Below are positions 1 through 64,000 of a stretch of 64,000 bases of DNA, piece after piece. Under the pieces are notes generated by a model. That model was not told the DNA's origin. It worked only from the letters and a program-made list of their open reading frames with translations, and did not search any database. The stretch's first letter is position 1. The number at the start of each line of letters is the position of its first letter. Made by a program: the position numbers and the translations under genes. This stretch comes from Pegea sp. RAD2-039 (lineage: Eukaryota > Chordata > Thaliacea > Salpida > Salpidae): NCBI GenBank assembly GCA_034620365.1, contig JAQGEQ010000387.1, forward strand, positions 1 to 64,000, in the 5' to 3' direction.

Positions 1-2310
1 AGAGGTTGTATAACCTTGGTAAAGCAAGCAATCATCTCTGAAATATTTTCTGATAATAAATATATATGATTTACAGGATGCATATCTCAATCTTATGATC
101 AGTTAATGGTCTTGGGTTATAATTTGCTTGAAGTTATAATTTGAACTTGGATAACTTTTTATGGAAAATACAATTAGTGAGTAAGTTGAATAAAGTGAAC
201 TTCTATTATTTACAGATAATACGATCAAATTAATTTAGATCAAAACTTTATTTCATTTATCTAAACAGTTCTAGGATAATGTGAAAAAACTTGAAAAGGT
301 TTTCTAGCTTTGAAATACTTACATAAAATTTTATATGGTATCACTAAAATCTGTTTCATATGCAGTTTCATCTGAAACATTATTTCATAAAAATATAAAT
401 AAATAATTTTAAATATTATAACTAGTATGAATATTATATTTATTTTATATAATAACTAAATAATTTATAATAATATAAGAACTTATATGACAGCAAAGTG
501 AATTATTTAAAGGTAGAAAAAAAAACTAATTATAGATTTTTCTTATGAAAATTTTATAACCATAACAATTTATAACCCCAAGAGAAAAAGTTTGACTAAA
601 TATTTTTAACTTTTATATTTTAATCTTGTTGTTTTACCAAAATGTAGAACTTTCTACTACACAGTAAAATTTTATTTTTTATTTTATTCAATGTTTATCT
701 GTTAGTAACAGTTTTTAAAAGTTCAGACGTTTATATTGATTAGAAAAATAAATAAATCATTCAAATTATTGATTTGAAGTTGGTAAAATATATAATATGA
801 TAATTATCTTTGGTTGTAAATAAGCTTTAAGAACAAAAAATCATTTTTTTATTTGAAAGAAGATTGCGGTTTTAGCAAATAATATGCATCCTTCTATCAA
901 TTGACATTTTTAAGAAAATTTTATTGTTAGAGTATTATTCTTATTTCAACTTAAAATTTGTGTGAAATGAACATTTTGTATATTTTAGTCTACAAAATTT
1001 TACTTTTTGTAACAGAAATGTTCTATCCGCTAGAAAGTGCGATATATAGATAGCAAAAATATATTTTGGGGTTTTTCAGCTTGCCAGTCACTAATCAAGT
1101 AGCTTAAGCTAGTAAGATTACGTAAACACAATTATTGAAGTAAAAAGAGCATCAAAAACGTTCAATATAAGCCACAAAAGATGAAAATAATTTATAATAA
1201 TCTATTTCTTGGCAGTAAGAATTGAACTGAGGTAAGATGCTACGGGTCGTGAATAAGATTAGAAAGTGAAAGTAAATAACATCATTAAACAAAAGTTGAA
1301 AAAGTTTCAAACTCAGTTAAGTTTATTTATTATATTTTAATCATGTAAATAATCTCAACTTCTTCATTTAAATTGAAAGTATAAACGTTCTGGATAACTC
1401 AAAGGTCTCTATATAAAGATAAAGAGTTTTAATATTTGTTGAATTTACGATCATCTAGATTTGTGATGAAAACATCAATTAGTTTTATAAAAGATTTGTT
1501 TAAACTATGATAACTTACTAAGTTTGGAGTAAAAGTCAAATAATTTTCAAAATTTTAAATTGTATCGTAAACATAATTTCTTTGACTAATTTCAAATTAT
1601 TGACAATCAAACAACTAATATATTTGTGTGAGGAGTTTTCAAAACATTTCTACTTCAGCGTATATTTGTATTATAAACTAAACATGTCAATAAATACGTT
1701 TTTTATTAAACTACCTTTCTATTTTATTAACAATCAAAGGTTAAACTGAAATGTCACCGATATTCAACTTGTTGGTTTATGTTTTCACAAATTTTATCAC
1801 TGAAATGATGCAGTTATTAACACCTGATATTTTGATATAAAGCAATTTCTAAATCATTTCGTTTCTAAATAAAGATGATTTTCAAAAATTCTTCTTTTAA
1901 TAAATTATTTATTTCAATAGTAACAAGTTTAGATAAAAATTAGATTGTTCATGCTTACCTTTAAGCTAAACGTTTTTAAAATTATTATAACCAAATGACT
2001 TAGATAAGAGATAACAAAAAAAGTTTACAAACTGAAGAAGATTACATTTTTTTCCAAAAACTCTAAACTTTAAATTTCCGTAGAACTTTTTCATCATTTG
2101 TTTAAACACAAAAGGTATTTTTTTCGGTTTTTCATTTTATGTTTTTTTGGTATACTTTACACTTATTAGAATTACATAAACATTGTTACAAGTTTTAAAT
2201 TATTGTAAGTTTGAATATGTATGTAATAATTATTATCAAAGAAAAAGAGATTATTTAATCGTAGATATTTTCTAAAGCCTTTATAACAACTTTAAAAAAG
2301 AATTCGTTTG
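1..2310. other. No gene seen; AT-rich non-coding DNA
   Basis: No open frame above background. Only the CTCF-like site at 1024 and one isolated CTGTTTCA (351-358) stand out. No unit of families A-F recognised. Confidence 0.6.
1024..1042 (+). promoter_or_regulatory. CTCF-like site, one-base insertion
   Basis: TCCGCTAGAAAGTGCGAT: like the 47104 and 51013 sites with an extra A. Isolated; no promoter-like unit within 1 kb. Confidence 0.3.
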
Positions 2311-2429
2311 AACTTGATATCACAAACTCTAGATAGTGACAAAGTAATAAATGATGAAAAACTAACGAAGGATTATTCTGATGTAGTTTGTGTTGAATGA
2401 TATTTTTAGAGTTTAAATATTTTTCAACG
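2311..2429 (-). promoter_or_regulatory. Family A unit 1
   Basis: Core GTTTGTGATATCAA (2314-2327) preceded by CTAGA. The palindrome-like GTTGAAAAATATTTAAAC (2411-2429) ends 102 bp from the core. The TATA-like box has decayed to TTATTAC. Confidence 0.6.
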
Positions 2430-2659
2430 AAATTTTAATTAATAAATCAGTTAAATAAATTGTTACCATTTTTTTATGAGAAATGACATAACAACTTCAA
2501 GTAAAAATTTTATATCGATTTCAAGTACGTTACTTGTATTATTTCATATAAATATAAATAAAAATATGTAATTTTTAATAATATTATTTTGGGTTTGTCG
2601 TTTTACCAAAGTGTTGAAATTAGTATTACAACAACAAAAATTAAATTATTTTTAAATTT

Positions 2660-2960
2660 TTCTATTTAATGGTGATATTAAATGTAGATTTTTTTGATGA
2701 TGAGATTTAATTAAATTTTATTTTAAAGAAAATACAATCTCCGTATTACTTACTTATGAAAACTACTTAGTTGGTAAACAGATGCAAAAGTGAATCTTCC
2801 AAATATTGCATTTATAAATACTGGTTTTGGTATTTCAGTGAAAAAGGAATTTTTAAATGTTATTTATAAGCTGGATATAACCTTATGTTTGTGGTTTCAT
2901 CGAAAATTATTTATACTTTAATCATTTAAAATGATATTCAAAAGATGATTACGATTTTTA
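2660..2960 (+). repeat. Direct copy of 45570-45870 (family B block)
   Basis: GATGATGAGATTTAATTAA, AACAGATGCAAAAGTG, ATTGCATTTATAAATACTGG and TTTGTGGTTTCATCG recur in the same order at 45570-45870. Confidence 0.85.
2780..2905 (+). promoter_or_regulatory. Family B unit 1
   Basis: Imperfect palindrome GATGCAAAAGTGAATC near 2780-2797, TATA-like TTATAAG (2873), core CTTATGTTTGTGGTTTCATC (GTTTGTGG at 2887). Distance 107 bp. Confidence 0.65.
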
Positions 2961-3059
2961 CTAAAGTAATTTTGTTTAATTTATTAATTTAATGATGTAA
3001 AGCTTTTTTTAGTTTTTTTGAAGATCACATTAAATATAGAAATTATAAATGGTTGAGAG

Positions 3060-3290
3060 ATGCAACAACTGTTAGAACTTATATAAAAATTTAAAAATAT
3101 ATTTTGTAGTGAGTTAAAGGAATAGAATTACTATCTAATGAAAAAACAAATTCAAAATGGTTTATTATTTTTCTCTTTTTATTAAATAGAATTTTGTCTT
3201 GCTTGGTGACTACGCAAGAAAAATTAATATTTGTTTTAACTAAATATAAATACTTATGTCTCAGAAAGTTTTTTATTCAATTTCGAAAGT
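3060..3290 (+). repeat. Segment inverted at 8730-8960
   Basis: GTCTTGCTTGGTGACTACGC and AAATACTTATGTCTCAGAAA recur reverse-complemented at 8750-8840. Both hold the CTTGC ... GCAAG palindrome. Confidence 0.8.
3198..3218 (+). promoter_or_regulatory. CTTGC ... GCAAG palindrome
   Basis: CTTGC and GCAAG arms around TTGGTGACTAC. The inverted copy is at 8812-8832, with decayed relatives at 55138 and 28913. It lies about 310 bp downstream of family B unit 1, the place where other family B units have a CTCF-like site. Confidence 0.4.
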
Positions 3291-5916: not shown

Positions 5917-6084
5917 GTCAACAAGAAGTTTATTATTGAAACTAGAAAATTTTAATCGTTTGAACTTGATCCCACAAACACTAGATTTCAGAAAAGTTTA
6001 TAAATAATATAAAGTACATTCAAACTGGACGCTACAGTCGTGTGAGAATCATTTTGAAATTTGGAGTTGAATTACCTTTCAACG
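5917..6084 (-). promoter_or_regulatory. Family A unit 2
   Basis: Palindrome CGTTGAAAGGTAATTCAAC (6066-6084), TATA-like TTATAAAC (5996-6003), core CTAGTGTTTGTGGGATCAAG, then CTTCTTGTTGACA about 54 bp downstream. Palindrome-to-core distance 105 bp. Confidence 0.68.
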
Positions 6085-7367
6085 ATATATTAATTAAGTA
6101 GAATAACTTGAGTTTCTATTCTTTACAACAAACAACAACAAAATAATTTAGTTCAAAGCTCTTGTAAACATCGATACTGACAACGTGATAGAATGTTTAG
6201 AAATACAAAACTTTTATTTCAGCAAAATTAGTATTTCTACTTCTACTTTAGATTAAAAAATAAAATTAATCAGCAAGTACATCTGAAGAAAAAATCAGAC
6301 TTTAATGATTTTAACTATTTTCTATTTTTAAAAATGTTCTTTTACAACCTTACACTTTAAAACATACAGTAATTCCATCAAACTTGAAATATTCATAAAA
6401 TTCTATTCAAATTGAAGACTAAATTAAAATCAAATTAAATAGAATACTTTACAAGTTGTAAATTTTTGTTTTATTTTTCTAATACTAAAATAAATTTTAA
6501 AAAGATGACATCAGTAAACGTTTTGATAATTTTTGGTTTTTAGAGGTGAAGTCATCAGATGATGCTTTTCAGCAAGTAATCAGAAGACATTTAAGTTGTT
6601 TTCTGGCTAAAATTAAGAATCATAATAAGTAAGGCTTCCAGTAATAGATTTATTAAATTAGATTTAAGGCAAGTTGATTTAAAGTAACCAAAAATTTAGA
6701 TGTCTAATACTAAGCAGTTTAATAATTAATTAATATTAGGAAGATTCTTCAAGTTAGAGTTTTAGTGATACAAATATCCTTGAAACATTGAGTTATGAAG
6801 AATTATGAATTTTATTTTCTAATTTAAACTAATATTTTCTGAGTAAATAAAAAAAGTAAATAAATAAAAAGAAAATTAATATTAAAAAGCAGAATTTTAA
6901 ATTATCAAAGAATCTCAGTAAAAGCAAATTGTTATTATTTCTTATTTTGAAAAATACCTTTTTGATAAACAGATGCAAAATAAAGTAAAAGTAGCAAAAC
7001 AACTGATTTATTCAATCATAAAAATTAAAATTACTGAAGTTATTTCTTTTAGTGTTAATTTTAGATTTTTATTATAATATATTATTCATTAATATAAGTT
7101 TTTATTTAAAGTAATTACCAAATTAAGAATAGTTATAGGTTTTAAGGTTAATTATTTTTATTAAAAAGAAAAGAAATTTCAAATAAAACTCAATATGAAG
7201 CAGATATTAGTGATGCTATAAATAATTTTTTTTGATTAACTGAAAGTTAACTTTTTTGAACGTCCTACCTCATTATCAGATAAGTCTTTACAAAAGTAAA
7301 TGAAATTATTTTTATGTCGTTTTTTCTACATAATAGATACTGAAGTTCTCTTTAGTGATATAATTTT

Positions 7368-7532
7368 CGTTGAACAATATGTCAACTCCAAATAAGGTTT
7401 CAAAAGACCATTTATAACTAGCTTAGCATTTTTTTTAATTTCCTTATTTATCACTCTGTCGTAATCTAGAGTTTGTGGGGTCAATCTTAAACAAATTTGT
7501 TTTTACAATTTTAATATTAATTTGTTGTTGAT
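7368..7532 (+). promoter_or_regulatory. Family A unit 3
   Basis: Palindrome CGTTGAACAATATGTCAAC (7368-7386), core AATCTAGAGTTTGTGGGGTC with GTTTGTGG at 7471, and TTTGTTGTTGAT at +50. Distance 103 bp. The TATA-like box is weak (CTTATTTATC). Confidence 0.65.
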
Positions 7533-8370: not shown

Positions 8371-8436
8371 GTATATTGATATATCTATGATTTTCGTAAA
8401 AAATAGAAGTTATTCAAATTATTTTCTAATTGATTC

Positions 8437-8562
8437 TTGTTTAAAAGTATTTGGACTCCAAGTTAAATTTTAAATAGCCACTGATTATTGTTAAAATAAA
8501 CAACGTGAATTTTTGATTATTTATTACTTTGTCGCAATCTAGAGTTCAGTTGGTATCAATTT
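8437..8562 (+). promoter_or_regulatory. Family A unit 4, variant core
   Basis: CAATCTAGAGTTCAGTTGG replaces the usual core; the same variant occurs at 56147. The upstream element is degenerate (TTTAAAAGTATTTGG), 107 bp away. Confidence 0.55.
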
Positions 8563-11652: not shown

Positions 11653-11804
11653 TTTGTCAACAAAATGTTTATCAAAAAAATTATAAAATTAATTTCATTT
11701 GAACTTGATCCCATACACTTCAGATTGCAACAACGTTTATAATAAATGAAAAGTTAAATAAAACTCAATCTTTCGTAAAGAATTTTTTTTCGTACTTTAC
11801 AACG
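11653..11804 (-). promoter_or_regulatory. Family A unit 5, upstream element partly deleted
   Basis: TTATAAACGTTGTTG then AATCTGAAGTGTATGGGATC, with TTTGTTGACAAA 54 bp after the core (11653-11664). Compared with 22048 and 28009, about 20 bp are missing between palindrome and TATA. Confidence 0.6.
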
Positions 11805-12219
11805 AAACTTTAAATAATAAATAATAGGTAATATGACAGATTTTTTACTAATTGAAAACTTTTCATTCAACAAAACTATTATTTTTCTTTTTATTATCAT
11901 CTATTCGAAATCATTAAATATCAGCTCGGCAATCTGTATTTATCTATCATGAGATAAAATATCAAATAGTATAAATTTGTTTCTAAAATTTTAAACATTG
12001 TAAATTGTTGCCTTCGATATTATCAATTTACAAAAAGTAAAAATTACTTTTATGAATGGAAATTTTATGAATTACTAACCTTTTCTACATTCGTAAAAAA
12101 CCAAATATTTTAAATGTATTATTTAATATCTTCTGTAAACTAAAAGTAATACCAAAAAAATATTAAAATTATATAAAATCATATATTTTTGTAAGTGTTT
12201 TTTTGATAACTAACCGTCT

Positions 12220-12498: not shown

Positions 12499-12652
12499 GA
12501 TTAATTAAAGCCATCGAAAAATTTACCGATACCACAAACATAAGATTGAATGAAAATAATATATAACCATAAAGCTTAAGGAGAAATGAAATCGTTTTAT
12601 CTCGTAATTTGAAATTAAGATAATATTTTGGAAGATGCACTTTTGCATATGG
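12499..12652 (-). promoter_or_regulatory. Family B unit 2
   Basis: ATATGCAAAAGTGCATCTTC (12632-12651), GGTTATATATT box, core AATCTTATGTTTGTGGTATC (CCACAAAC at 12532-12539 on plus), then a CTTTAATTAATCGATAAAG block about 28 bp downstream. Distance 110 bp. A CTCF-like site lies about 300 bp downstream. Confidence 0.7.
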
Positions 12653-13547: not shown

Positions 13548-13715
13548 CGTTGGAAAGTATTTCAACTCAAAATTATGTAAACGATTTGTTGTCAGGAAGA
13601 AATGTTTGAAAGATATACTTTTCATTACTTATAAACGTTGTTGCCATCTAAAGTTTGTGTGATCTAAAATAAGATATTTTTTCCTAATTTTAATAACAAA
13701 CTATTTGTTCAAAAA
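13548..13715 (+). promoter_or_regulatory. Family A unit 6
   Basis: Palindrome CGTTGGAAAGTATTTCAAC (13548-13566), TTATAAACGTTGTTG, core ATCTAAAGTTTGTGTGATC (GTTTGTGT at 13653) and CTATTTGTTCAAAAATAAT at +50. Distance 105 bp. Inverted partner of the unit at 26051. Confidence 0.68.
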
Positions 13716-14109: not shown

Positions 14110-14570
14110 TGAAAGTTAGATACTTTTTCAAATAATATGTCACTTATCAGTAAGGTTTAAAGAAAATGAAAATAAACTTTTTACCTAAATTAGTTTTACT
14201 TCATTTTTTGTATAAAAGGTAAATCAAGTGACTTAACTCAGTTATTCAACTTTATTTTAAATAACAGATTCGTTGAAAAATTATTTCAACTCCAAAATTC
14301 CAAACTAGGCTTGCTGTTTGACTAGTCTACTAGAAGTAGTAGTCGAAATTATTAATTTACTTTTGACTATTTATAACTTTGTGGTAATCTAGAGTTTGTG
14401 GGATCAAATTAAAATTTTAATGGTAATTTTTGTTTATAAATAATGCTCTCTTTGTCAAGTTTAAAATAAAACTATATATATCAAATATTTGTTTATTTAT
14501 TAAAAAATTTATAAGTTGAAAACTGTTAAAAAATAATTATTATTATATTATTATAATATTATTATTATTA
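14110..14570 (+). repeat. Segment inverted at the right end of the window
   Basis: Reverse complement of 63590-64000, including the rare string GACTAGTCTACTAGAAGTAG and the family A unit. The palindrome-to-core spacing of 123 bp, longer than usual, is the same in both copies. Similarity still runs at base 64000, so the array continues beyond the window. Confidence 0.85.
14271..14410 (+). promoter_or_regulatory. Family A unit 7, long-spaced
   Basis: Palindrome CGTTGAAAAATTATTTCAAC (14271-14290), TTATAAC box, core AATCTAGAGTTTGTGGGATC (GTTTGTGG at 14394). Distance 123 bp, one of two long-spaced copies. Confidence 0.68.
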
Positions 14571-16200: not shown

Positions 16201-18960
16201 ATTTAAAGCTAGATTTGTTATGATTTACTGTAAGTCTGACTGATAAATAAATAACTCCACAAAGCTTCTTACAGCTTAAGAAATTACTTTAATTAGCAAA
16301 TTTACAATCTTTAATCTTAATCTTCTATCGTTTACTAAGTAAGTTCAAATAAATATTTTTTCTGCATTGCTTTGAATAGTGTTTGAACATTACAAGCACT
16401 AAATGTTTAAAACAGTTTTAACTGCAACATTGTTTTTATAACATTAGAACAAAACTTTTTCCTAGAATAGAATATAATAAAAAATGAGATACCTGACAAC
16501 TTAAGAAATATTATAAAATTTAGGAAGCAAAACTCATAAAATTGATGTAGTTTTGAATTTCTTACAATAAAATAAAAAGAAAAAAAAAAGTCAACTAACG
16601 AGAGATTCTCAACAAGAAACTATATTTATACTAAAAATGTAATTATTGATGTAATATTCAAAAATGCAATCTTTCATTAAAATATTTATAGATAATTTGT
16701 TGTAGTTATACTAATGATTATTTCATACTACAAAAATTTAAACTTTGAAATTAAGTTAAGAAATTGTTATCGAATGGTTATGTTTAGTGCCAATCAAAAG
16801 AATAAGAAAATTTTTTTTCAAATTTTTAGAAATATATAAATTTTTAGTGAAAATCTAATAAAAAAAAGTTAATTTTATATGAATGCCAGAAAATTTGACG
16901 TTTTTTCAAATAAAATTTTAAAACATTTTCAACCCACAAACACAAGATGAGTAGTTGGTTATATAAAGCAATTTTGCTGAAACTTTCACGAGTAATATAA
17001 TCTACTAAAATTTTGTATTTTGGAAACTGATAGAATAAGTTGATGTAACCAAGTAAAACGCAAGATTTTTTATCAAGTTGAGATTCAACAAAATGTGATT
17101 TTCTACATACCTTATAAAAATTTCAAGAAAAACTTGTTTATATCAACTTCAGTCATTCAACAAAGTTCTTTCTGTACATCTTTATTTATTATATACTGTT
17201 GTTGGTTCTGTAGAATTTTTTAAACTGTTTTACAAATCCAAAAAAATATATTTTTAGATTTAAAAACACACTGTTTAGTTAGCAAATTAAACTTAAGTGA
17301 ATATATTATATTATATAATGAGTCCAATGAAAATTACTAGTGAAAAAAAACACTATACTTCCTAATTTTGGTAAATAAAAAATTGTAAAATATAGTTTAA
17401 AGTGTATCATGAAAAGTTTTTATGAACTTAAATTAATTTTTTGAAATTGATTATATCGTGTTTTAGTAAAATAAAACTTTTAATGTCTTCATGAATGATT
17501 GAGCTTCTTTTAATATTAAATATCAAATAATTTACTAAAGTTATAATTTTTAAAGTTCACAGCCTGCCGTACTACGATAGGTAGTATCTAGAAATTATTT
17601 TACTCAAAAATACAAAAATTATGTTTTAGTTGTAAACGAAAATAAGAAAAATTTCATATAGATAGTGTTACAAGAATAATCTATTCGATTCTAAGATTTC
17701 AAAATTGTAACAAAAATACGTAATTTTTAAAAAGGCTACACATTAAAACTTGATATAAACCAAACAATACCTATTCTTGCGTAAATATTTCTAACAAATT
17801 TGTTTAAATTATTTTTTTTGTTTATTGAAAACTAATATAAAATTAACATTAAATTTTAATTCTTGAAATACAAAATAATCGAAAAATGTTTGTAGAATGA
17901 AAGATTTGATTGGAGGAAATTGGAGATTAATTCCGAATTAACTAACAGTTATCGATTTTTTATTTTTTTACCAATTTTACTTTTTTATTTCGAAATGAAT
18001 GCAAAGAACAAACACATTATTTTTCTACAAAATATAAAATAAAATATTTAATAAAATAATATACAGAAATAAAAAAACTTTATACTCAGTGGAAATAATT
18101 AAACAATTTCATATCTCTTTATGGAATGTTGTAAGTACAATTCTATTATTTCTTTTAACATTTCCCTTTTTAGAGCCTTTTTTTGCAGTTTAATATTGTA
18201 TGTCAGTGAAACTTGAGTCTACAAATACGCTTTTTTCTTTACTTTTTTAATTCACAAGATAAAAAAAACACAAAAAAACAAAATAATGCAACATTTCAAA
18301 TTCAACCTGATTATTGATAATTGTCTTATAGAAATGTTTTATTTAAAACATAATAGTAATAACATTAAATATCATAATATATAATAATTATTATCAATAA
18401 ATGAATAGGTAATGTCACATTTATTATCTCGACAGAAATGAGTTGATTTTTAAATATTTTAATAAAAAAAAGTTTGTGTTACAGTAAATTTGTTCTCTGT
18501 TTTTATAAACTAATAAATTCTAAAATTTTATTTATAATTTGTATTTAAGAAAAGTATGTTTTATATTTCGTGTTAATATTCCTTCTGCATGGATATTGAG
18601 AATCTCTCAAATACCTTGAAATTTTGTATTTTTACTATAAATTAGTCCAAAATAAGTCCATAAATTAAAAACTTTTCGAAAAGACTTTTTGAGAACAATT
18701 TTAGAAAGATCTTAAAACTATGTTGTGAAAAAGTTTGACGTCATCAGCTTTGATAGAAAAGAAGAAAAATTAGGCTAAAATGTGATTCTATAAGTAATTA
18801 CTAGAAATATATTTTTTATGTTTATTTTGTGAACTTTCATCTATTTATAAATTTATATTTATTTACAAAATCTCATTATGGTATGTTTTATTGAATCTTC
18901 TAAGCTGCTCTCCAGTTTTTTTTTTCCACAAAAATGTTAATTTCTATAAAAAAATACAAG
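16200..18960. other. No gene seen, apart from family C unit 4
   Basis: I see no ORF, SINE/LINE or duplicated segment except the minus-strand family C unit (16931-17075). Confidence 0.55.
16931..17075 (-). promoter_or_regulatory. Family C unit 4
   Basis: The minus strand reads ATCTTGCGTTTTACTTGG, CTATCAGTTTCCAAAAT, then TATATAACCAACT and core CTTGTGTTTGTGGGTT (16934-16941 on plus). The only family C copy on this strand. Confidence 0.6.
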
Positions 18961-19041: not shown

Positions 19042-19160
19042 GTTGAAATTTATTCAACTCCAAAATGTATTCTATTCTTACAGATTTATAGAAGTGCAAG
19101 TTTTCAATTGTTTAATCAGTATTTGTAAAGTTGTTTCAGTCTAAAGTTTGTGGCGTACAG
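19042..19160 (+). promoter_or_regulatory. Family A unit 8
   Basis: Palindrome GTTGAAATTTATTCAAC (19042-19058) and core AGTCTAAAGTTTGTGGCG (GTTTGTGG at 19146), 104 bp apart. The TATA-like box is poor (TTGTAAAG). Confidence 0.6.
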
Positions 19161-19579: not shown

Positions 19580-21120
19580 CAAAAAAAGAACAGATTCAAA
19601 CTATTTAAAAAATGTAAAATCTATATTTTCATTTTTTTTTATTGAAGAAAAAAGTTTATGAAAATTAAGAATAAAACGTTTTTGTATTAAGATTAAACAA
19701 AAATCAATTAAAACCACTGGCTACTTTTACAATATTAAACAACTTGCTTAATTATATCGTTATACAGTTAGAATGCTAGGAGTTTTTAAAATATATCTTC
19801 ACTAATTAAATGTAGATAAAAATAAAGTTTAGTATTTTCGGTTATCACAATAATAAGTAAAATATATTAAAGACGATGTTTTATTCACAGATACATTTAA
19901 TTGATTAAATTAAATAATTTTGCTGTGTATAATAATGAAGTTTTAGCTTGATAGAATTACACTTTCAAATTACTAAAGTAAAAGATTATTAAAAAACGAA
20001 ACAGAATCTAGCAAAAGTTATTTTACGAATTACAGACTACCATGATAACAAATACTTTAATATTAGTGAAGGTTACATCGACACTTAGTCGACTTCAAAT
20101 TAGATTTTACGCAAAAATTGGTTTGCAAGACAATTAGATTTAGCGCTAACAATTGCTTATTAAAAAGGATTTTTATTCTAGTGTTTGTGGGTTAAACACT
20201 GATTTATCATCGTAAGGAGAAAAGCACTAAACCAAGATTCAATTTAATTTTGTTTAGGTTGAAAAAACATAAAAATCTCTTTCTCTATGAATTCTTTTTC
20301 TAATGATTATCCAAAACGAAAATGTGTTAACTTTAGATTAGTTTTGTCAAAAACTCGTACAAATCTCCACAGTGTTCAAAAATCAAATAACAGTTTTAGA
20401 ACTAAAAAGCCGATAATTATAGAGACAATCAAAAAGTTTTATTTTTTTAATCTTATAACTAAAAGAAGTTCACTGAACTATTGATCTAATTAAAATGATA
20501 ATTGATAAAGTTCAATGGTTTTCATCTTTTGCAAATACAAAAAACTTGTATATTAATATCAAAGCAACTTTTAGATTATGGATCTAAAATTGGTGAAATG
20601 TTTCCAAACAATAATTGACTTTGATTCCAAATAAACTGTAAAAACTGGTAAGTCTGTAGTTTCACTAAATTAAAAGAAAGCATCAATTAATTGAGTTAAA
20701 TGAAAATATTTTTGTTAAAATATTATTCTCAGTCCTATTCTAAATCTGATAATTAACTTTATCCATCGTCATAAGAGTTAAAATACAATTTTTTTGATTT
20801 TTTTAAGAAAAGAAAATATTTTCGAAAAAAGATTTCTTATATTAAAAGATTTAAAAATTAGATAAAAATAGGAGAAGCAGGTTATTTTATTTTTATTGTC
20901 TCAAACAATTTCTTGGGTTAAACTTATTAGTATGTGATGTATTTCACAATTTTTTCTCATTACAAAATTTAGTAATCTTATTAATATGTCCTAACAGCAA
21001 TTAAAATAATTCAATTTTTCAAACAAAGGGCATTACTGGAAATCTTCTGATAGCTTATAGAGAATATCTGAAAAACTTTATGAAATACACAAAAAAGTTG
21101 ATAATTATTGTTGACGTCGT
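19580..21120. other. No gene seen, apart from the family F unit
   Basis: Contains the family F unit (20077-20200) and diverged remnants of family B/E downstream blocks near 20570-20700. A 65-codon open frame at 20287-20484 has no recognisable motif and its length is within chance for this composition. Confidence 0.5.
20077..20200 (+). promoter_or_regulatory. Family F unit (TCGAC palindrome)
   Basis: Palindrome TCGAC-ACTTA-GTCGA (20079-20093) lies 104 bp upstream of core TAGTGTTTGTGGGTTAAA (GTTTGTGG at 20183), the same distance as in families A and B although the palindrome is unrelated. The TATA-like box is weak (TTTTTATTC). Confidence 0.52.
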
Positions 21121-21130
21121 ATAACAATAT

Positions 21131-21281
21131 CAATTGATTAAAGCACACGCAAAATTTAACGATACCACAAACATAAGATTGTTTGAACAAGTTATATAAC
21201 AGTATAGATTTCAATAAAGCGTTTTTCATACCTGCTTTCATTCTTCTAATGATTTATTTGGAAGATGCACTTTTGCATCTA
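21131..21281 (-). promoter_or_regulatory. Family B unit 3
   Basis: Perfect palindrome AGATGCAAAAGTGCATCT (21263-21280), GTTATATAAC box, core CAATCTTATGTTTGTGGTAT. Distance 108 bp. The sequence between palindrome and box differs from the other family B copies. Confidence 0.7.
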
Positions 21282-21926: not shown

Positions 21927-22117
21927 AACTTGATCCCATACACTTCAGATTGCAACAACGTTTATAAGAAATGAAAAGTAAAATAAAACTCAATCTTTCG
22001 TAAAGGATTGCAAAGTTTTAAAATTTGGAGCTAACGTACTTTACAACGAAACTTTAAATAATAAATAAGTTTAATAACTTGAGTTATTATTCATCACAAA
22101 ATATGTTTGTAAACATG
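21927..22117 (-). promoter_or_regulatory. Family A unit 9, with forkhead-like palindrome
   Basis: ATGTTTACAAACAT element (22103-22116) 173 bp upstream, palindrome-like CGTTGTAAAGTACGTTAGC (22030-22048), TTATAAACGTTGTTG, and core variant GAAGTGTATGGGATCAAG. The downstream block is replaced by the LINE fossil. Confidence 0.65.
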
Positions 22118-23787: not shown

Positions 23788-23905
23788 GTAGCACCACAAA
23801 CAACAGACTTTAACTATTTTTATATATCCCGATTTTTCCCTTCCAGAAACGTTTATTTAGTAAAGACGGACAATCTATTTAATTTTGAAACCGCTAAGTA
23901 GTGGT
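23788..23905 (-). promoter_or_regulatory. Family D unit 2
   Basis: The minus strand has ACCACTACTTAGCGGT (palindrome-like, 23889-23904) about 104 bp upstream, TATATAAAAATAG, then AAGTCTGTTGTTTGTGGTGC (core 23794-23801). The upstream element resembles the CTCF-like sites. Confidence 0.58.
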
Positions 23906-24419: not shown

Positions 24420-24830
24420 ACAAAGAAAATTACTAATGGAAAACAGATTTTAACGATTTTAAGCAATTTATAGAAAACGTTCAATCTTGATATTCTTATG
24501 AAAAATAATCTTTGTTTGTGGTAACGATAGATTTTGTGTAGGTAAACTGTTGTTCTTAAAAAATGTTGACTTAAATGAATAAATCAATGATTAAAAAGTA
24601 AAAGAAAAATGTAACTAAAAAACATTTGATAATCAGATGCAAGAGTGCATCTTCCAAATTAGTATTTTTAATCTAGATGAGTAATAAAATTATTTCACTT
24701 CTACGTAAGCTTTACGGTTATATATTATCTTCATACAATCTTATGTTTGTGGTATCGGTAAATTTTTCGATTGCTTTAATCAATCAATAATGTTATTGAA
24801 AATATCATTTTTAACTGAACTTCTATCTTA
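24420..24830 (+). repeat. Direct copy of 26850-27300 (family B block)
   Basis: AAAGAAAATTACTAA, AACGTTCAATCTTGAT, TGTTGACTTAAATG and the whole family B unit are collinear with 26850-27300. Confidence 0.85.
24634..24790 (+). promoter_or_regulatory. Family B unit 4
   Basis: AGATGCAAGAGTGCATCTTC (24635-24654), TACGGTTATATATT, core CAATCTTATGTTTGTGGTAT (GTTTGTGG at 24745). Distance 110 bp. A palindromic AACTGC ... GCAGTT site follows at 25021. Confidence 0.7.
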
Positions 24831-25517: not shown

Positions 25518-25801
25518 AAAAAAATGTTGAATAACTACTCTTTTTAAATTCATTTTTGCTAAAATATAGAAAATAGAAAGTTTTATAATTATCCAGACTG
25601 AAGACTGTGTTTAAAATGTCTGTTTTAAGATTACTAATTTTGCTAAAACATTTTATTTCGTAAAAATTTGTAAACATTCGGTCATTTTATCAGTTACATG
25701 CTTTTACGTCAAAAAGTGAATGTTAAACATAAATTACTTTTATGTTGCTAATTGTTGCGAATTGAAACTCAAGGTAGTCTTAGTACTTATTAATTAATTT
25801 T

Positions 25802-25916
25802 CGTTAAAAGTCATTCAAATTCAAACCAATAATAACAGGTTTTGTACACTACAATGGATTTAACAACCTTTTGATTTATCAGTAATTGGTTACAATTTAG
25901 AGTTTGTGGGATCAAT
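25802..25916 (+). promoter_or_regulatory. Family A unit 10
   Basis: Core TTTAGAGTTTGTGGGATCAA (GTTTGTGG at 25902) with a decayed upstream element CGTTAAAAGTCATTCAA 100 bp away. It faces the minus-strand unit at 26051 head-on, the two cores being about 200 bp apart. Confidence 0.6.
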
Positions 25917-26050: not shown

Positions 26051-26214
26051 ACAAATAGTTTATTATTAAAGTTATAAAAAATATCGTACTCTAGCTTGAT
26101 CCCACAAACTCTAGATTGCAACAACGTTTATAAGTAATAAAAAGTACATCATTCAAACATTTCTTTCTGATAACAAATCGTATACATAATTTTGAGTTGA
26201 AATACTTTTCAACG
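26051..26214 (-). promoter_or_regulatory. Family A unit 11, near consensus
   Basis: Palindrome CGTTGAAAAGTATTTCAAC (26196-26214), TTATAAACGTTGTTG, core CAATCTAGAGTTTGTGGGAT, and AATAAACTATTTGTTGGC at +50. Distance 105 bp. Confidence 0.72.
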
Positions 26215-27120: not shown

Positions 27121-27290
27121 AGATGCAGAAGTGCATCTTCCAAATTATTATCTTAATTTCAAATTACGAGATAAAACGATTTCATTTCTCCGTAAGCTTT
27201 ACGGGTATATATTATTTTCATTCAATCTTATGTTTGTGGTATCGTAAATTCTTCGATGGCTTTAATTAATCGATAAAGTTATTGTTCATA
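27121..27290 (+). promoter_or_regulatory. Family B unit 5
   Basis: AGATGCAGAAGTGCATCTTC (27121-27140), ACGGGTATATATT, core CAATCTTATGTTTGTGGTAT (GTTTGTGG at 27232), CTTTAATTAATCGATAAAG at 27260. Distance 111 bp. A CTCF-like site lies 293 bp downstream in the same relative orientation as for unit 2. Confidence 0.72.
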
Positions 27291-27940: not shown

Positions 27941-28178
27941 ATGTTTACAAACATATTTTGTGATGAATAAAAACTCAAGTTATTAAACTTATTTATTATT
28001 TAAAGTTTCATTGTAAAGTACTTTAGCTCCAAATTTTAAAACTTTGCAATCCTTTACGAAAGATTGAGTTTTATTTTACTTTTTATTTCTTATAAACGTT
28101 GTTGCAATCTGAAGTGTATGGGATCAAGCTCAAATGAAACTTATTATATAATTTTATTGATAAACATTTTGTTGACAA
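27941..28178 (+). promoter_or_regulatory. Family A unit 12, with forkhead-like palindrome
   Basis: ATGTTTACAAACAT (27941-27954) 173 bp upstream, CATTGTAAAGTACTTTAGC (28009-28027), TTATAAACGTTGTTG, core variant GTGTATGGGATCAAG (28114), TTTTGTTGACAATTATT at +53. Confidence 0.68.
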
Positions 28179-44641: not shown

Positions 44642-44886
44642 ATGTTTACAAACATATTTTGTGCTGAATAATAACTCAAGTTAATAAACTTATTTATTAT
44701 TTACAGTTTCGTTGTAATATACTTTAACTCCAAATTAAAAAGCTTCGTAATCCTTTAAGAAAGATTGAGCTTTATATTATTTTACTTTTCATTTCTTATA
44801 TACGTTGTTGCAATCTGAAGTGTATGGGATCAAGTTCAAATAAAATTAATTTTATAATTTTCTTGATAAGCATTTTGTTGACGAAT
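44642..44886 (+). promoter_or_regulatory. Family A unit 15, with forkhead-like palindrome
   Basis: ATGTTTACAAACAT (44642-44655) 178 bp upstream, CGTTGTAATATACTTTAAC (44710-44728), CTTATATACGTTGTTG, core variant GTGTATGGGATCAAG (44820), TTTTGTTGACGAAT at +54. Confidence 0.65.
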
Positions 44887-45569: not shown

Positions 45570-45870
45570 TTTAATGGTGAAATTAAGTCTAGATTATTTG
45601 ATGATGGGATTTAATTAAGTTTTATTTTAAAGAAAATAGAAACTCTGTATTTCTTACTAATGAAAAATACTTAGTTGATAAACAGATGCAAAAGTGCATC
45701 TTCCAAATATTGCATTTATAAATACTGGATTTGGTATTTCACTGGAAAAGGATTTGTAAATCTTATATATAAACTGCCTAAGACCTTAAGTTTGTGGTTT
45801 CATCGTATATTATGTATACTTTAATCATTTTAAATAAAATTCAAAAAAATAATTACAAAAATTTTTTTAA
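45570..45870 (+). repeat. Direct copy of 2660-2960 (family B block)
   Basis: Partner of the above; here the palindrome is perfect, whereas the earlier copy has one substitution (GAATC for GCATC). Confidence 0.85.
45684..45840 (+). promoter_or_regulatory. Family B unit 6
   Basis: Perfect AGATGCAAAAGTGCATCT (45684-45701), TATATATAAA box (45764), core CCTTAAGTTTGTGGTTTC (GTTTGTGG at 45790). Distance 106 bp. A CTCF-like site lies about 270 bp downstream. Confidence 0.7.
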
Positions 45871-48769: not shown

Positions 48770-49506
48770 TAGGGAGACTAAAAAATTAAAAGATTAGAAA
48801 TTGAAAAGTTGCCAAATAATTTTCTACTGCATTAAAGTATTTACAGCATTGAAAGTAGGTTTTTTGAAATGATTTTTAATTAATTCAATTTTAGCAATGT
48901 AAAAAATAAATAAAATAACGATTTTTTTACCTTAAATTCATTTTCATTTTCAGTTGAAGTTTAATTACAAATACTCTTCTTGCTGAAAGGAAAGTTTTCT
49001 ATTTGTAAAACTTTTGTCACATTATTAGTAATATGTTTAAAAACAAGAAAACGAAATTCTGACATCAATTGTTTTTACCTCAGTATTTTTACAAAATACA
49101 AACTAAAATTACTCTTAAATAAATTTACTTTTAAATAAAATTTCATTGAAAAGTTATTCAACTCCAAAAATAGCTGCCATGAGAACATTAAGCGATAGCA
49201 TTTTTCAAAATTTGTCAGTATTTATAATTTTGTTTTATTCTAGAGTTTGTGTGGTCAAGTTTAAACCAGAAAACTTTTGTTACTTTTAGATAAAAATATT
49301 TGTTTGTAAGTAATCTCATTTTTTTCAAGTTTGAATTGAATCTTTGTATATTAATAACAGATTTGATAGTTCAAAAAAAATTAGTGGCGCTGATAAATGA
49401 AGACTTTTAGAAATTAAGTCAAAAGCCATTTGAATGTTTTGTTTTTAAATTGTGAATACTAACCGATTGGGAAGCTTATATATATTTATAAAGAAAATCT
49501 CTTGTT
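48770..49506 (-). repeat. Inverted copy of 30165-30905
   Basis: Partner of the preceding segment. Similarity stops abruptly after TCTCTTGTTTTGGGACT near 49506, where the other copies continue with a different sequence. Confidence 0.8.
49144..49262 (+). promoter_or_regulatory. Family A unit 16
   Basis: Palindrome-like CATTGAAAAGTTATTCAAC (49144-49162), TTATAATTTTG box, core TCTAGAGTTTGTGTGGTC (GTTTGTGT at 49245). Distance 101 bp. Confidence 0.64.
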
Positions 49507-53190: not shown

Positions 53191-53368
53191 GTTGAAAATT
53201 CATTCAACTTCAAATTTGTTATTCAACAGATGGAACCAGCTTTCAAAATCGAATTTCGTTGTTCAAAGTTTCATAGTTTATAATTTTGTTGCAGTTTAGC
53301 GTTTGTGGGACCAAATTTAAATAAATCAATTTATGTATTTTTAATAACAAATCTTTTGTTGAAAATTT
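53191..53368 (+). promoter_or_regulatory. Family A unit 17
   Basis: Palindrome GTTGAAAATTCATTCAAC (53191-53208), TTATAATTTTGTTGC, core TTAGCGTTTGTGGGACC (GTTTGTGG at 53301), CTTTTGTTGAAAATTT at +52. Distance 110 bp. Confidence 0.64.
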
Positions 53369-54023: not shown

Positions 54024-54190
54024 AGATGCAAAGGTGCATCTTCTAAAATTTATAGTTTATGTACTTATCAGATCTTACGGATCCTGTTTATTCGAAATCT
54101 ATACGGTTATATATTAACTATATACAATCTTACGTTTGTGGTATCGTTAAATTTTTCATGCGCCTTAATCGACTAATAAGGTTATTGAAA
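54024..54190 (+). promoter_or_regulatory. Family B unit 7
   Basis: AGATGCAAAGGTGCATCTTC (54024-54043), ACGGTTATATATT, core CAATCTTACGTTTGTGGTAT (GTTTGTGG at 54134). Distance 110 bp. Box and core are kept although the DNA between palindrome and box has diverged. Confidence 0.68.
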
Positions 54191-55881: not shown

Positions 55882-56040
55882 CAAAATACTTAGTGATAAT
55901 AGTTTTTTAAACAATTCAATTAATAAATGAAATCTATTAATTTATTTATGCTTGCATATATAAAATGTCTAAATATATATATATAATTTCAGTAAAAAAT
56001 TGAAATTCAAGTTATTCAAATTATTTACTTATTGAATTTT

Positions 56041-56163
56041 CGTTTAAAAGTATTTGGACTCCAAGTTAAATTTTAAGTAGCCACTGATTATTATTAAAAT
56101 AAACAAAGTGAGTTTTTGATTATTTATTACTTTGTCGCAATCTAGAGTTCAGTTGGTATCAAT
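56041..56163 (+). promoter_or_regulatory. Family A unit 19, variant core
   Basis: CAATCTAGAGTTCAGTTGG core (56147) with CGTTTAAAAGTATTTGG 106 bp upstream. Direct partner of unit 4. Confidence 0.55.
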
Positions 56164-56660: not shown

Positions 56661-56899
56661 TTTGTCAACAAAATGCTTATCGATAAAATTATAACATTAG
56701 TTTCATTTGAACTTAATCCTATACACTTCAGATGGCAACAACGTTTATAAGAAATGAAAAGTAAAATAAAACTCAATCTTTCGTAAAGGATTGCAAAGTT
56801 TTCAAATTTGGAGTTAAAGTACTTTACAACGAAACTTTAAATAGTAAATAAGTTTAATAACTTGAGTTATTATTCATCACAAAATATGTTTGTAAACAT
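56661..56899 (-). promoter_or_regulatory. Family A unit 20, with forkhead-like palindrome
   Basis: ATGTTTACAAACAT (56886-56899) 173 bp upstream, CGTTGTAAAGTACTTTAAC (56813-56831), TTATAAACGTTGTTGCC, core variant GTGTATAGGATTAAG, TTTGTTGACAAA (56661-56672) at +54. Confidence 0.66.
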
Positions 56900-57181: not shown

Positions 57182-58348
57182 TAGATTAAGTTTGCTACAA
57201 TAATAAATATCTAAAACTTAAATAATCACTTTAATCAATTGCTTTAAACTATCTTGAGGATTAAAATTAGACCTGTTTTTTAGTAAATAGTCTTCAAAAT
57301 GTAAGTTAAGCACCAGAAGGTTTCATAGTCTGAAATTAAAAAGAAGTATTTGAGTGAAAATTTTACACAGAAGTTGTTTACAGTAGATGTAAAAGATATT
57401 TCGCTAGGCGAAAAATTAGGATAAATCTAATATAAAAAACTTACTTTTAAGACTGGTGTAAATTTAATTACGTAATTTTTCATTTTAACTTTTTTTATAA
57501 TTTATAAATTCTATATAAAAACATATATTTAAAAAATTAGTCATTTGTGTCAAATGCATAATAGTATAATAGTAAAGTCTCATAAAAGATTATCTAAGTT
57601 TGTATTTAGATATTACCAGATACAAAAAAATACAAATTTTGCTGTTTAATGTTAAAAAATCGAAATAACTATTCTTCATGGTTTTCTTTTTTTTTCATTT
57701 CTAAAAGTTAAGTAAAAATAATAATTTTGCTAAAAATCTATACGTATCTTCTCAGCAATTAACCGTTTAGAATAAACTTTGAAAAAATTTAATCAAAATT
57801 GTTTATTGTTGATTTAGATGTATATTGAAATAAATATTTTTCTATAAATTTTAGTTTTTATATCTTATATTTGATTCAAAAAATTTTGGTTAAAAATATT
57901 ATTCGATATCAGTGGTTACGGAATTTGATCATTTTAAAATCTTTTTCTAGTTACTATTTAAAAAATGATAAGAGAGTCATAATCAGATAAATTTTTTTGT
58001 TGTTGCAAATACTTCATATTACATTAAGTTTAACTTTTTGCAAATTATATTTTTAACATAAGAAATTTAGAATTTTTGCAATCAAGAAACGAACAAATAT
58101 TTTTGATTTTTTATCTGATGAATGAATAATTGTAACTTTCTTGAAATTAGTCAGCTGCGTTTAGCTTTCCAGAGGACTAAAAATAGAATTGTCGAAATGA
58201 TATTTAATGATTTAATGATATAAAAAATATGGATATTTGTTAATGTTTTTTGTTTTCTTATTCTGAACTCTAAATAGAAATACAAAAATTTAATTTCTAG
58301 GAAACTTAAAATATTTAAATATAATCAAGATTTTCTACTTTTGATTTC

Positions 58349-58442
58349 TCATAAGTTTAGTGCAATCTAGTGTTTGTAGGATTAAATTTAAAAGATTTAT
58401 TTTTTTGTTATTTTAAGTATAAACCTTTTGTTGAAAAATAAT
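58349..58442 (+). promoter_or_regulatory. Family A unit 21, no upstream palindrome seen
   Basis: CATAAGTTTAGTGCAATC box region, core CTAGTGTTTGTAGGATTAAA (58372) and CTTTTGTTGAAAAATAATT at +54. The usual upstream palindrome is not recognisable. Confidence 0.5.
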
Positions 58443-58612: not shown

Positions 58613-58785
58613 CGTTGAAAAGTATTTCAACTCAAAAATGGTATATACAACAACAGTTGAGTACACTTTATAGTTTTTTTTTAATATCCTTATTTATCTC
58701 TTTATCGTAATCTAGAGTTTGTGGCATCAGTTTAAAACAAAAAATTATTCTAGTTTTAATTATAACTTATTGCTGACAAAAACAA
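58613..58785 (+). promoter_or_regulatory. Family A unit 22
   Basis: Consensus palindrome CGTTGAAAAGTATTTCAAC (58613-58631), core AATCTAGAGTTTGTGGCATC (GTTTGTGG at 58717), TATTGCTGACAAA at +52. Distance 104 bp. Same strand as unit 21, 345 bp downstream. Confidence 0.68.
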
Positions 58786-60600: not shown

Positions 60601-60706
60601 CAAACACAATAATATTAGAAGGTTTACAACAATACAGTTTTTGTATGTCCACTACTGTGAAAAATAAAAACTCAAGATATTCAACTTACTTAATAAATGA
60701 AGTTTT

Positions 60707-60885
60707 GTTGATTAACAATTTAAATCCAAATTTATAATCAGCTAAAAACCTTAAATGCTGATTGAAATATTTTTTTACTTTTCATTTCTTATCAGTTTGT
60801 TGCAATCTAGAGTTTTTGAATCAAGTTTAGGAGAATGTTTTCCTATAATTTTATTGAACAAACTTTTGTTGACAAGAAAATTATT
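60707..60885 (+). promoter_or_regulatory. Family A unit 23
   Basis: GTTGATTAACAATTTAAAT upstream, core CAATCTAGAGTTTTTGAATC (60812), CTTTTGTTGACAAG at +52. Distance 105 bp. Core and palindrome are both altered. Confidence 0.52.
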
Positions 60886-60889: not shown

Positions 60890-63020
60890 AAAATACATTT
60901 GAAAAATGTGTTTATATATTTAACAACTCAACAAGTTTTTTGTACTCCGAAGAAAAATTTTAAATATTAAAAACACTATAAAAAAAATATTTAAAAATCT
61001 TTAATATCAAAAGAAGCACTCTTAAAAATTTTGTCTATTTTTTAAAAATCGAATTACTAACTCTCAAACAGTGTTTTTCTGATAATATTTTTACAAATTA
61101 AATCTTGCTAGTAAATTTCTAAAACTTTATTTGGTCTTTTATTTCTAATTAATTATGCAAGGAAACAATTGTAGAAATATGTTTATCTAGTTTACAATTA
61201 TGATTTTTTCTTTCTTCTTCACTTCAATTTGTTAAAATATTTTTGCAAATTTTATATTACCGTAAGTTTTAATGGGTAAGATTTAAGTAAGATTTCTAAA
61301 TTAAAAAAAATAAAATTCAGTAAAATCCAAAAACTACTACTGAAGTACTTCTCATAAATAAAAAACCAGAATTTTCTGATAATCATTTTAAAGATAGTTA
61401 ATTAGTTCTTGAACTCTTCTTAAATTCTTCAATATTTTGATAAAACTATGTTTTTTGTCACTAAAAGGTCAGTTTGTTGTTAGATTTGTCTGCAAAACTT
61501 TAAACAGTTAAAATATTAAATCCAATATTTTGCTTTTAATAGAGGAAAAGTATTTTGACTTCAATATTTTCAAAACATTTAAAAACTTTTGTTGAAGATC
61601 AATAATAAGAATATCTGAAAATACTAAATCATGCTCTTGTTCTCTTCGAAGATTTCATTTCTTTTTGAGTGCACTCTCGAATAAAATGAAAAAGCAAAAC
61701 GATGTTTAATCTTTAAAATAATTTCAAAGTATTAAATTGTTGGCAATACTGGTAAACAAAGAAATTGATAAAAATTAGAAGAAAGAGATTTTTACATACA
61801 CAAAGTTGAACAATACTACAAAAATAAGATTGTTTACAGATAGTATATAACCGCGTAGTTCTGTGCTTACCAGTCTTTGATGGAATTTTTAATTTAAAAG
61901 ATTCATTTTCTTATTTGTTTATTTTTCAAAGGAAGAAAATTAGGTTGTGTGTTTTTTTCAGACTGCTTGTTTTTTACAAACTCCGTATAAAAATGAGATT
62001 TCTTACCAAAGTTGCTTTTTACTTTTAGTCAATTTTTCCAAATATTCAACCGAAATTTTTCAACAAAATAGTTTTTTCTGCGTTGAAAATATTTTGTATT
62101 CTTGTCAAATAAATTGTAAAGTTTTAATAATTCTATGTCAAATGATTTTAAACCTAAAACTAATTGAATAAAATTAAGTGAGACATTACTGATTTCAATA
62201 CCATAATTTAAAATCTCTTTTAATTTTTAATCATTATTTTGAAATATTTATCATAAATTTTTTTCATTCAAAATATGTTTTTAATGAAATTCTTGAAACG
62301 TTTTTTTGTCAGTTGAATTGTAAATTTTCTATAATTCTAAGACTTTTTAAAATTGAACTTTGAATAAATGTTTTCTTTTAATTAGAACTCCAAACTTTAG
62401 AAAGTTACATTTTCATATCATTTAAAAAATCTTTAAATAATCCTTTGAAAACTATTGTTAACTACTTCATAAATATTTGAAATTAAAATATTTTTCCACA
62501 AAAAAGAATTAAACCAATAAAATTTGAATCTAAATTTTCTACAAATTATAGAAAAAACATTTTCAAATCTAGATAGTTTTCAAAAACTAAAGGATTGCCG
62601 AGAAGACTTTAATTAAAAATGGAAATTTTGAGTTTAAAATTGGAAAAAAAATTTCAAAGATTCTATTTGTTTCTTCAACAAATTGATACAAAGCATTAAA
62701 AAAATATAATTTCTAAAAACTTTTCAGCTGCTTTAAACTAACTAGAGGATTAAAGATAAATTTGTCGAGCTGATATTTATTGATTTCGATTAATTTATAT
62801 CAGAAGGAAATTAGGAAATACCAATTTTGCTACATAATTTTAATTTGTTTAATTGAATTCTATGTAAAAGTACTAATTTTGATGATAGAAAATTCTTCTA
62901 TTATCTACGGTGTCTGTAACCTATCTAAATTAATAAAATAAACTTTTGGACGTAAAGTATGTTTACAGAATAGTTTTTAGAGAATTGAATATCTAGTTAT
63001 TCAAGTTATTTAAAAGTCAA
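60890..63020. other. No gene seen, apart from the family B-like core at 61811
   Basis: A 74-codon plus-strand frame at 61947-62171 is Phe/Cys/Asn-rich and looks like chance. GAGTGCACTC (61657-61666) is a short palindrome without a neighbour unit. Confidence 0.5.
61811..61870 (-). promoter_or_regulatory. Family B-like core without palindrome
   Basis: GCGGTTATATACT followed by CAATCTTATTTTTGTAGTAT. Box and core spacing match family B, but no palindrome is seen 110 bp upstream. Confidence 0.45.
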
Positions 63021-63025
63021 GATTT

Positions 63026-63200
63026 CGTTGAAAAGCATTTCCACTACAAAATTCATTTATAAACTATCTTATTATTAATAAACGAAATCTAGAGGTACTT
63101 TCCCTTATTTATAAACTTTGCTGCAATCTAGAGTTTGTGGGATCATGCTAAATTACGATAATTTTTCTAATTATAGTAATAAACTATTTGTTGACAAATA
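63026..63200 (+). promoter_or_regulatory. Family A unit 24
   Basis: CGTTGAAAAGCATTTCCAC (63026-63044), TTATAAACTTTGCTG, core CAATCTAGAGTTTGTGGGAT (GTTTGTGG at 63132), CTATTTGTTGACAAATAATT at +53. Distance 106 bp. One of the best-preserved complete units. Confidence 0.72.
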
Positions 63201-63551
63201 ATTCTCAAATAAACAGAAAATCTTAAATAGAAAGTTTGTCTTAAAGGTGAAAAACAATTTTTATTATAAATTAATTATTGGTAAGGACAAAATTAGTATA
63301 ACATTGTAATTAGTTCAAAAAAAAAATTTCTTACGGAGTTTTGTTTATGTCAGTTTTACATTTATTTTTACTTTGATAATTAAATTGGAAATTGATTAGT
63401 CGTTTAATAAAACTATAGTCGACAGAACTTTAAAACTAAATATTTAAACTAAATAAACTAATAGATAATACAATATAATAAATATTATCTTTCACTTATT
63501 ATTTTTATCTAAGTAAAGTTTAGCATATACATTTACGAAAATTTATTGGTT

Positions 63552-63593
63552 TAAACTTGTTCCCACAAACTCTATATTGCAACAAGGTAATAA
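63552..63593 (-). promoter_or_regulatory. Family A core 25, no upstream palindrome seen
   Basis: CAATATAGAGTTTGTGGGAA with TTACCTTGTTG in the box position. It converges on unit 24, cores about 430 bp apart. Confidence 0.5.
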
Positions 63594-64000
63594 TAAATTA
63601 AAAATTTATTAAATTATAAATATTTTAATAAATAAACAAATATTTGATATACATAGTTTTATTTTAAACTTGACAAAGAGAGCATTATTTATAAACAAAA
63701 ATTACCATTAAAATTTTAATTTGATCCCACAAACTCTAGATTACCACAACGTTATAAATAGTCAAAAGTAAATAAATAATTTCGACTACTACTTCTAGTA
63801 GACTAGTCAAACAGTAAGCCTAGTTTAGAATTTTGGAGTTGGAATAATTTTTCAACGAATCTTTTATTTAAAAAAAAGTTGAGTAACTGAGTTAAGTCAC
63901 TTGAATTACTTTTTATACAGAAAATGAAGTAAAACTAATTTAGGTAAAAAGTTTATTTCATTTTTTTAAAACCTTACTGATAAGTGACATATTATTTGAA
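63590..64000 (-). repeat. Inverted copy of 14110-14570, running off the window
   Basis: Matches 14110-14570 in reverse complement through GTTGAGTAACTGAGTTAAGT and AGTAAAACTAATTTAGGTAA up to the last base. Confidence 0.85.
63719..63857 (-). promoter_or_regulatory. Family A unit 26, long-spaced
   Basis: Palindrome CGTTGAAAAATTATTCCAAC (63838-63857), TTATAACGTTGTGG, core AATCTAGAGTTTGTGGGATC. Distance 123 bp, as in its inverted partner unit 7. Confidence 0.68.

Follow-up and report, generated by a model that had tools for sequence, protein, structure and literature searches.

The DNA considered here is the first 64,000 nucleotides (positions 1 to 64,000, forward strand) of contig JAQGEQ010000387.1 from Pegea sp. 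RAD2-039, a member of the Salpidae (GenBank assembly GCA_034620365.1). This whole stretch, which we call the window, is poor in G+C (22.7%, from base counts over the 64,000 nt) and carries an array of short units of common build, in which the distance between a TATA-like box and a CAATCTnnnGTTTGTGG core hardly varies. To judge from their sequence, the units very probably belong to a greatly expanded family of genes for RNAs of about 60 nt that resemble small nuclear RNAs (snRNAs) of the Sm class, with a U7-like layout and an Sm site of the spliceosomal kind.

The array and its extent

A profile of box and core (the second of two, at more than 12 bits) picks out 36 units in the window and none in three shuffled windows; the first profile, at more than 10 bits, gave 35 units against none in one shuffled strand. 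An earlier note on this DNA had described an array with shared box and core and fixed geometry, which is what we find, save for its tally of about 45. That tally is obtained by adding weaker copies with three or four mismatches, of which shuffled sequence yields 20-45 per round. The note had also placed the units on both strands, and in families that differ upstream yet share box and core: we count 15 units on the plus strand and 21 on the minus strand (in transcript direction), and the flanks cannot be aligned between families. It had seen no unit leading into a convincing open frame, and we agree, as all six frames of at least 110 amino acids fall in a decayed retrotransposon (37066-40885). 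The window has 45 open frames of at least 65 amino acids, and in the 14 that were run against Pfam, matches below E 0.001 appear only in two frames of that retrotransposon.

Two related frames, of 72 amino acids (28040-28258, plus strand) and 84 amino acids (56582-56836, minus strand), cross units in the direction supposed by the earlier note. Neither has a Pfam match below E 0.3, and in at least two further members of the family the frame is interrupted by a stop or a shift (alignment by eye). A family of micro-exons or peptide genes was considered and rejected, on the Pfam scan of 14 of the 45 frames and on the lack of one common frame among the aligned copies. No tRNA gene was found in the window, and Rfam, whether searched at its gathering scores or as far as E 1, gives no match there.

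The family reaches far beyond the window. Genome-wide there are 216 exact copies of the core and none of the reversed pattern; the 100 of these copies that were listed fall on 13 of the 387 contigs. A genome search for core plus TATA, of the kind proposed in the earlier note, finds 958 matches with up to three mismatches, against 11 for the reversed control. Because the same pattern recovers 24 of the 36 units of the window, about 1,400 units may be reckoned, a rough upper figure that includes a few real snRNA genes, and we estimate the genome total at 1,000-1,400. Copies have spread together with their flanks in large, often inverted segmental duplications, such as that of 9905-13762 and 29934-25997 (90%). 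Miniature inverted-repeat transposable elements and short interspersed elements were rejected as an explanation, because the copies share flanks in segmental duplications, unlike retroposed units.

A probable snRNA-type promoter, read in the opposite direction

On the opposite strand the core reads CCCACAAACnCTAGATTG, an element that also precedes the genome's own U2, U5 and U6 genes, at a distance of some 55-64 nt. Upstream of U6 it takes the form CCCACAAACACTAAACTT at -64, followed by TATA; upstream of U2, CCCACAAACACTAAGCTT at -58, again followed by TATA; upstream of U5, CCCACAAAY at about -55 (a position counted by hand), with a TATA as well. Since the element of these genes is the reverse complement of CAATCTnnnGTTTGTGG, we take the core to be a proximal sequence element (PSE, with profile consensus CCCACAAACnnTAGATTG), lying upstream of the TATA box. 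The order in U2, U5 and U6 thus turns the units round: they would be transcribed against the direction of the earlier note, whose 'downstream' is upstream. The start is then predicted about 58 nt past the PSE start, reckoned from the first C of CCCACAAAC.

The idea of an expanded set of short, non-coding units of transcription in which the promoter parts are constrained therefore stands, but that of the core as start site does not. A promoter starting at GTTTGTGG could draw on the TATA-to-core spacing of about 25 bp, and the frames of 72 and 84 amino acids do cross units in that direction; we give it next to no credence, because the reversed core is the PSE of U2, U5 and U6, and because the Sm site and hairpin described below lie mainly on the other strand.

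The likeness to snRNA promoters can be put in figures. Applied to eight U2 and U6 promoters (four of the 12 U6 loci fetched, three of the eight U2 loci, and the U2 at L064, which lies next to a U6), the unit profile scores 9.5-24.3, and seven of the eight exceed 15.4, the maximum reached by up to 3,000 windows of 100 nt drawn at random from five other loci. The U2 copy at L064 is itself matched by the unit profile. When the 60 bases that follow the first base of the PSE are searched for the best match to TATAWA, with no position preferred and ties allowed, the match falls 26-30 from that first base in 31 of the 36 units; a perfect TATAWA is present in 21 units, 19 of which have it at that place. 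This spacing is U2-like, for it is 29 in U2 and 34 in U6 (hand count). Both U2 (L065-L072) and U6 (L053-L064) carry a TATA box in this genome.

About 45-60 nt ahead of the PSE, family A also conserves an element resembling TTATTTGTCAACAAA (for example at 5911-5925), which is perhaps a distal element; family B does not clearly share it.

The predicted RNA: arm, Sm site and hairpin

Past the predicted start the units with a recognisable tail have one layout, a free 5' arm, then an Sm site (ATTTTGGA/ATTTTTGGA and variants, of spliceosomal type), then a hairpin that follows immediately; Sm site and hairpin together we call the tail. The arm is 18-58 nt long; of 126 units that have a tail, 120 have an arm of 25-46 nt. 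The hairpin takes 16-19 nt (18 nt in 16 of the 24 window units that have a tail), and the predicted RNA, from start to hairpin end, has a median length of 60 nt.

The tail is found mainly on one strand. In the window, 24 of the 36 units have it at a cut-off of 9.5 (shuffles 3.1, reverse complement 2), and 14 at 11.5 (0.18 and 0). Among 147 distinct units and at the looser cut-off of 9 it is present in 126 (21.7 when shuffled, 16 when reversed), while a strict pattern of Sm site and hairpin is found in 30 of 54 non-redundant units (2.2 and 2.0 in the controls); each of these two sets contains one true U2 gene (L064). A further 20 units, chosen from the genome-wide list of PSE plus TATA (16 on contig C92, two on C134, one each on C59 and C91, some of them near copies of one another), show the tail in 13 cases where 2.5 are expected, with the new stems CCCGT/ACGGG and AACTGAA/TTCAGTT.

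The stems differ between families and pair nonetheless. Family A has GTTGAAA/TTTCAAC, family B AGATGCA/TGCATCT, and others have AACCGCT/AGTGGTT or GTCGAC/GTCGAT. In 44 distinct hairpins of 18 nt, pairing is seen in 279 of 308 cells, compared with 24-50% when the partners are slid, and all seven pairs show two-sided changes; these counts lean upward, towards structure, since the hairpin finder rewards pairing. Pairs were counted by script in gapless register, hairpins of 17 and 19 nt being excluded; in a MAFFT alignment the two main hairpin types stand one column out of register.

The same parts are held in recent copies. From 105 units that have both tail and flanks, 43 independent pairs of recent copies were drawn. 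Their substitution rates are 0.031 for the PSE (p=0.004) and 0.037 for the Sm site and hairpin (p=0.008), against 0.051-0.063 in the flanks, whereas the 5' arm, at 0.063 (p=0.22), exceeds its flank in 17 of the 43 pairs. PSE and tail are thus held and the arm drifts. That the arm evolves faster than its surroundings was considered and rejected, as neither these pairs nor a sliding profile gave support. The family averages of identity, which had hinted at such a faster arm, are 0.700 for the arm of family B, against 0.773-0.840 in its flanks, and 0.870 for that of family H, against 0.693-0.932.

About 20-35 nt past the hairpin, family A has a conserved AATAACTTGAGTT-like stretch, and TTATAACTT(G/C) is seen in the 3' flank of one or two of the eight U2 genes read. 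The stretch may be a 3' box.

What the units may be, and what they may do

The route from gene to particle can be sketched by analogy with other snRNAs. SNAPc would presumably bind the PSE, with the TATA box about 28 nt further on and transcription beginning about 58 nt past the start of the PSE, and SNAPc and TBP together would bring RNA polymerase II (Pol II) to the unit. Its RNA would be capped, an Sm ring would assemble at the T-rich site, and the terminal hairpin would close the molecule, leaving the 5' arm exposed. In a short Sm-class ribonucleoprotein (snRNP) such an arm could pair with target RNAs.

Sm-class RNAs are usually of few kinds, each strictly conserved. The SmY RNAs of nematodes are small, of the Sm class and present in several copies, as are the units, and Rfam holds a model for SmY; unlike SmY, the units match no Rfam family in the window up to E 1. 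The nearest relative in layout is U7 snRNA (RF00066), also of about 60 nt, with a 5' arm free to pair, an Sm site and a terminal hairpin. U7, however, is a single RNA of histone processing with a special Sm site, while the units have many arms, lack the U7-type site AAUUUGUCUAG (RF00066 consensus) and go unmatched by the U7 model at the same limit. A separate locus, L094 (G000:C59:134704-135004), is likely to be this genome's U7: it scores 31.8 bits (E 2.6e-5), under the gathering score of 34, and shares its PSE and TATA with the units, though a start at +58 would leave it an arm of just a few nt.

Engineered U7 SmOPT carriers, as presented in PMC5333040, join an antisense arm to a spliceosomal Sm site and a hairpin. 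The units share this layout, which is why antisense guiding is taken as their most likely job; the carriers are man-made, and for the natural units the pairing with targets is put forward as a proposal. We hold it tentatively, and rank the functions in this order: antisense guide, no function for the organism, precursor of Piwi-interacting RNAs (piRNAs). A larger and more doubtful proposal is that the genome keeps a library of at least about 1,000 natural antisense snRNPs, with a fixed chassis of promoter, Sm site and hairpin, and with drifting arms that would guide to transcripts of transposons or genes, perhaps standing midway between snRNA genes and piRNA genes driven by SNAPc. If true, 1,000 or more RNAs with a fixed chassis and a free arm would amount to an snRNP-based system of guide RNAs, with implications for how nematode piRNA genes acquired snRNA promoters. 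In the open-licence literature we found no paper describing such a family.

A number of observations, besides the upward lean of the pair counts, weigh against this picture of snRNA-like genes and of guides. Some concern the promoter. Five of the 36 units lack a best TATA match at the usual place, and the TATA stretch (0.047, p=0.52) shows no significant constraint in the recent pairs; the promoter of the U6 copy L058, at 9.5, falls under the random maximum; the start at +58 is taken over from U2, and the preference for a purine at that point is mild. Others bear on the choice of polymerase. U2 is elsewhere a Pol II gene. In human, following the account in PMC6004067, a TATA box next to the PSE directs Pol III, and with U2 also having a TATA box here the choice for the units is uncertain; Pol III seems the less likely because of the U2-type spacing of PSE and TATA, and because a T run lies within the Sm site, before the hairpin. 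As to the RNA, 12 of the 36 window units have no recognisable tail and one of the 24 tails is doubtful, so that part of the array may be dead. As to guiding, the arms are without constraint of their own; the 25 longest of 378 filtered matches to arms in the retrieved sequence are all family copies; and one G+C-rich arm, sought in the genome with up to three mismatches, returned only five copies of itself, all on cluster contigs.

Could the array then be a mostly dead or tolerated family derived from snRNA genes, without function and carried along by segmental duplication? Duplications that are large, often inverted and take the flanks along, the tail-less third of the window units and the drift of the arms would fit. 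We nevertheless consider it unlikely, since PSE, Sm site and hairpin are constrained even in recent pairs and the two sides of a stem change together. Spliced-leader RNA genes with many leaders would be a livelier use of the same parts: snRNA promoters, Sm sites and hairpins are found in spliced-leader RNAs too, their genes are multicopy, and trans-splicing occurs in many animals. GT is present in 61 of 69 distinct arms, slightly above shuffles (53.7, sd 3.3). The units, however, have no common leader, and beyond GT no 5' splice donor stands out, with AGGT in none of the 69 arms (3.9 expected), GGT in seven (11.5 expected) and GTA or GTG in 33 (32.5 expected). As no fuller donor than GT is enriched, we regard this origin as very improbable.

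A more serious candidate, unlikely in our judgement and placed after that of no function, is that snRNA promoters were co-opted for very many short RNAs whose arm is trimmed to a piRNA, as with the Ruby-motif (type I) piRNAs of nematodes. Those genes too are very many, short and clustered, with SNAPc-type promoters, and their motifs are held, in PMC6436959, to derive from the SNAPc/snRNA motif. The 1,000 or so clustered units, or more, have freely drifting arms, and the genome holds a Piwi gene (E 4.9e-21 with Piwi-like protein 1, about 4e-7 with argonaute-2). On the other side, the nematode precursors measure about 28 nt and are presented in the relevant part of PMC6436959 with no Sm site or hairpin, whereas the units continue past the arm into a constrained Sm site and hairpin, needless for a piRNA precursor, and their PSE profile lacks a GTTTC-type site such as that motif description gives for Ruby. 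T stands at the fourth arm base in 0.72 of 69 arms, but this is carried, as judged by eye, by two related families, and we claim no 5'-T piRNA signature. The reading as Sm-class, snRNA-like genes with a free arm thus remains the one that we prefer, whichever work the arm may do.

Units and other features of the window

The units are listed in Table 1, with strands in the direction of the predicted transcripts.

Table 1. The 36 units of the window, in order of position
Positions	Strand	Elements	Tail score
2319..2428	+	PSE, TATA, 5' arm, Sm site, hairpin GTTTAAA/TTTCAAC	
2780..2895	-	PSE, TATA, arm, Sm site, hairpin AGATTCA/TGCATCT	
5971..6083	+	G+C-richer arm, Sm site, hairpin GTTGAA/TTCAAC	
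7322..7479	-	PSE and TATA, Sm site, imperfect hairpin	8.5, below cut-off
8395..8552	-	Diverged PSE and TATA, unrecognised tail	
11710..11867	+	PSE variant CCCATACACTTCAG, TATA, damaged tail	
12531..12650	+	Family B; hairpin AGATGCA/TGCATAT	
13549..13661	-	Family A; hairpin GTTGAAA/TTCCAAC	
14272..14402	-	Family A; hairpin GTTGAAA/TTTCAAC	
16933..17041	+	PSE, TATA, Sm site ATTTTGGA, weak hairpin	
19042..19154	-	Family C; Sm site, hairpin GTTGAA/TTCAAC	
20077..20191	-	Sm site, hairpin GTCGAC/GTCGAT; TATA off usual place	
21164..21280	+	Family B; hairpin AGATGCA/TGCATCT	
21935..22092	+	PSE variant, TATA, Sm site, damaged hairpin	
23793..23905	+	Sm site, hairpin AACCGCT/AGTGGTT	
24635..24753	-	Family B; hairpin AGATGCA/TGCATCT	
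25795..25910	-	PSE and TATA, doubtful tail	9.6, just above cut-off
26101..26213	+	Family A; hairpin GTTGAAA/TTTCAAC; query of genome search	
27121..27240	-	Family B; hairpin AGATGCA/TGCATCT	
27965..28122	-	PSE variant, TATA, damaged hairpin	
30420..30530	+	Family A; Sm site ATTTTTGGAG, hairpin GTTGAAA/TTTCAAC	
33507..33622	+	Family C; hairpin GTTGAA/TTCAAC	
44671..44828	-	PSE variant, TATA, Sm site, imperfect hairpin	
45684..45798	-	Weak PSE, Sm site, hairpin AGATGCA/TGCATCT	
49145..49253	-	Family A; hairpin GTTGAAT/TTTCAAT	
53191..53309	-	Family A; Sm site AATTTGAA, hairpin GTTGAAT/TTTCAAC	
54024..54142	-	Family B; hairpin AGATGCA/TGCATCT	
55998..56155	-	Diverged PSE and TATA, unrecognised tail	
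56718..56875	+	PSE variant, TATA, damaged hairpin	
58223..58380	-	PSE, no TATA match at usual place, unrecognised tail	
58614..58725	-	Family A; hairpin GTTGAAA/TTTCAAC	
60663..60820	-	PSE, no TATA match at usual place, unrecognised tail	
61815..61972	+	Weak PSE, TATA, unrecognised tail	
63027..63141	-	Family A; hairpin GTGGAAA/TTTCAAC	
63562..63719	+	PSE, unrecognised tail	
63726..63856	+	Family A; hairpin GTTGGAA/TTTCAAC	

Apart from the units, an open frame of 67 amino acids (SLKSVLDEAEFIVYEPGENGRVFPENLSAKQIESMVGDKN; 42368-42571, minus strand) has the look of a coding exon and no Pfam match up to E 1. The decayed retrotransposon mentioned above, on the minus strand, is of the kind without long terminal repeats and encodes an endonuclease and a reverse transcriptase; its upstream open frame contains, by eye, a cysteine-rich, PHD-like stretch. 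Fragments resembling this element lie at about 21598-21882 and 34825-35098.

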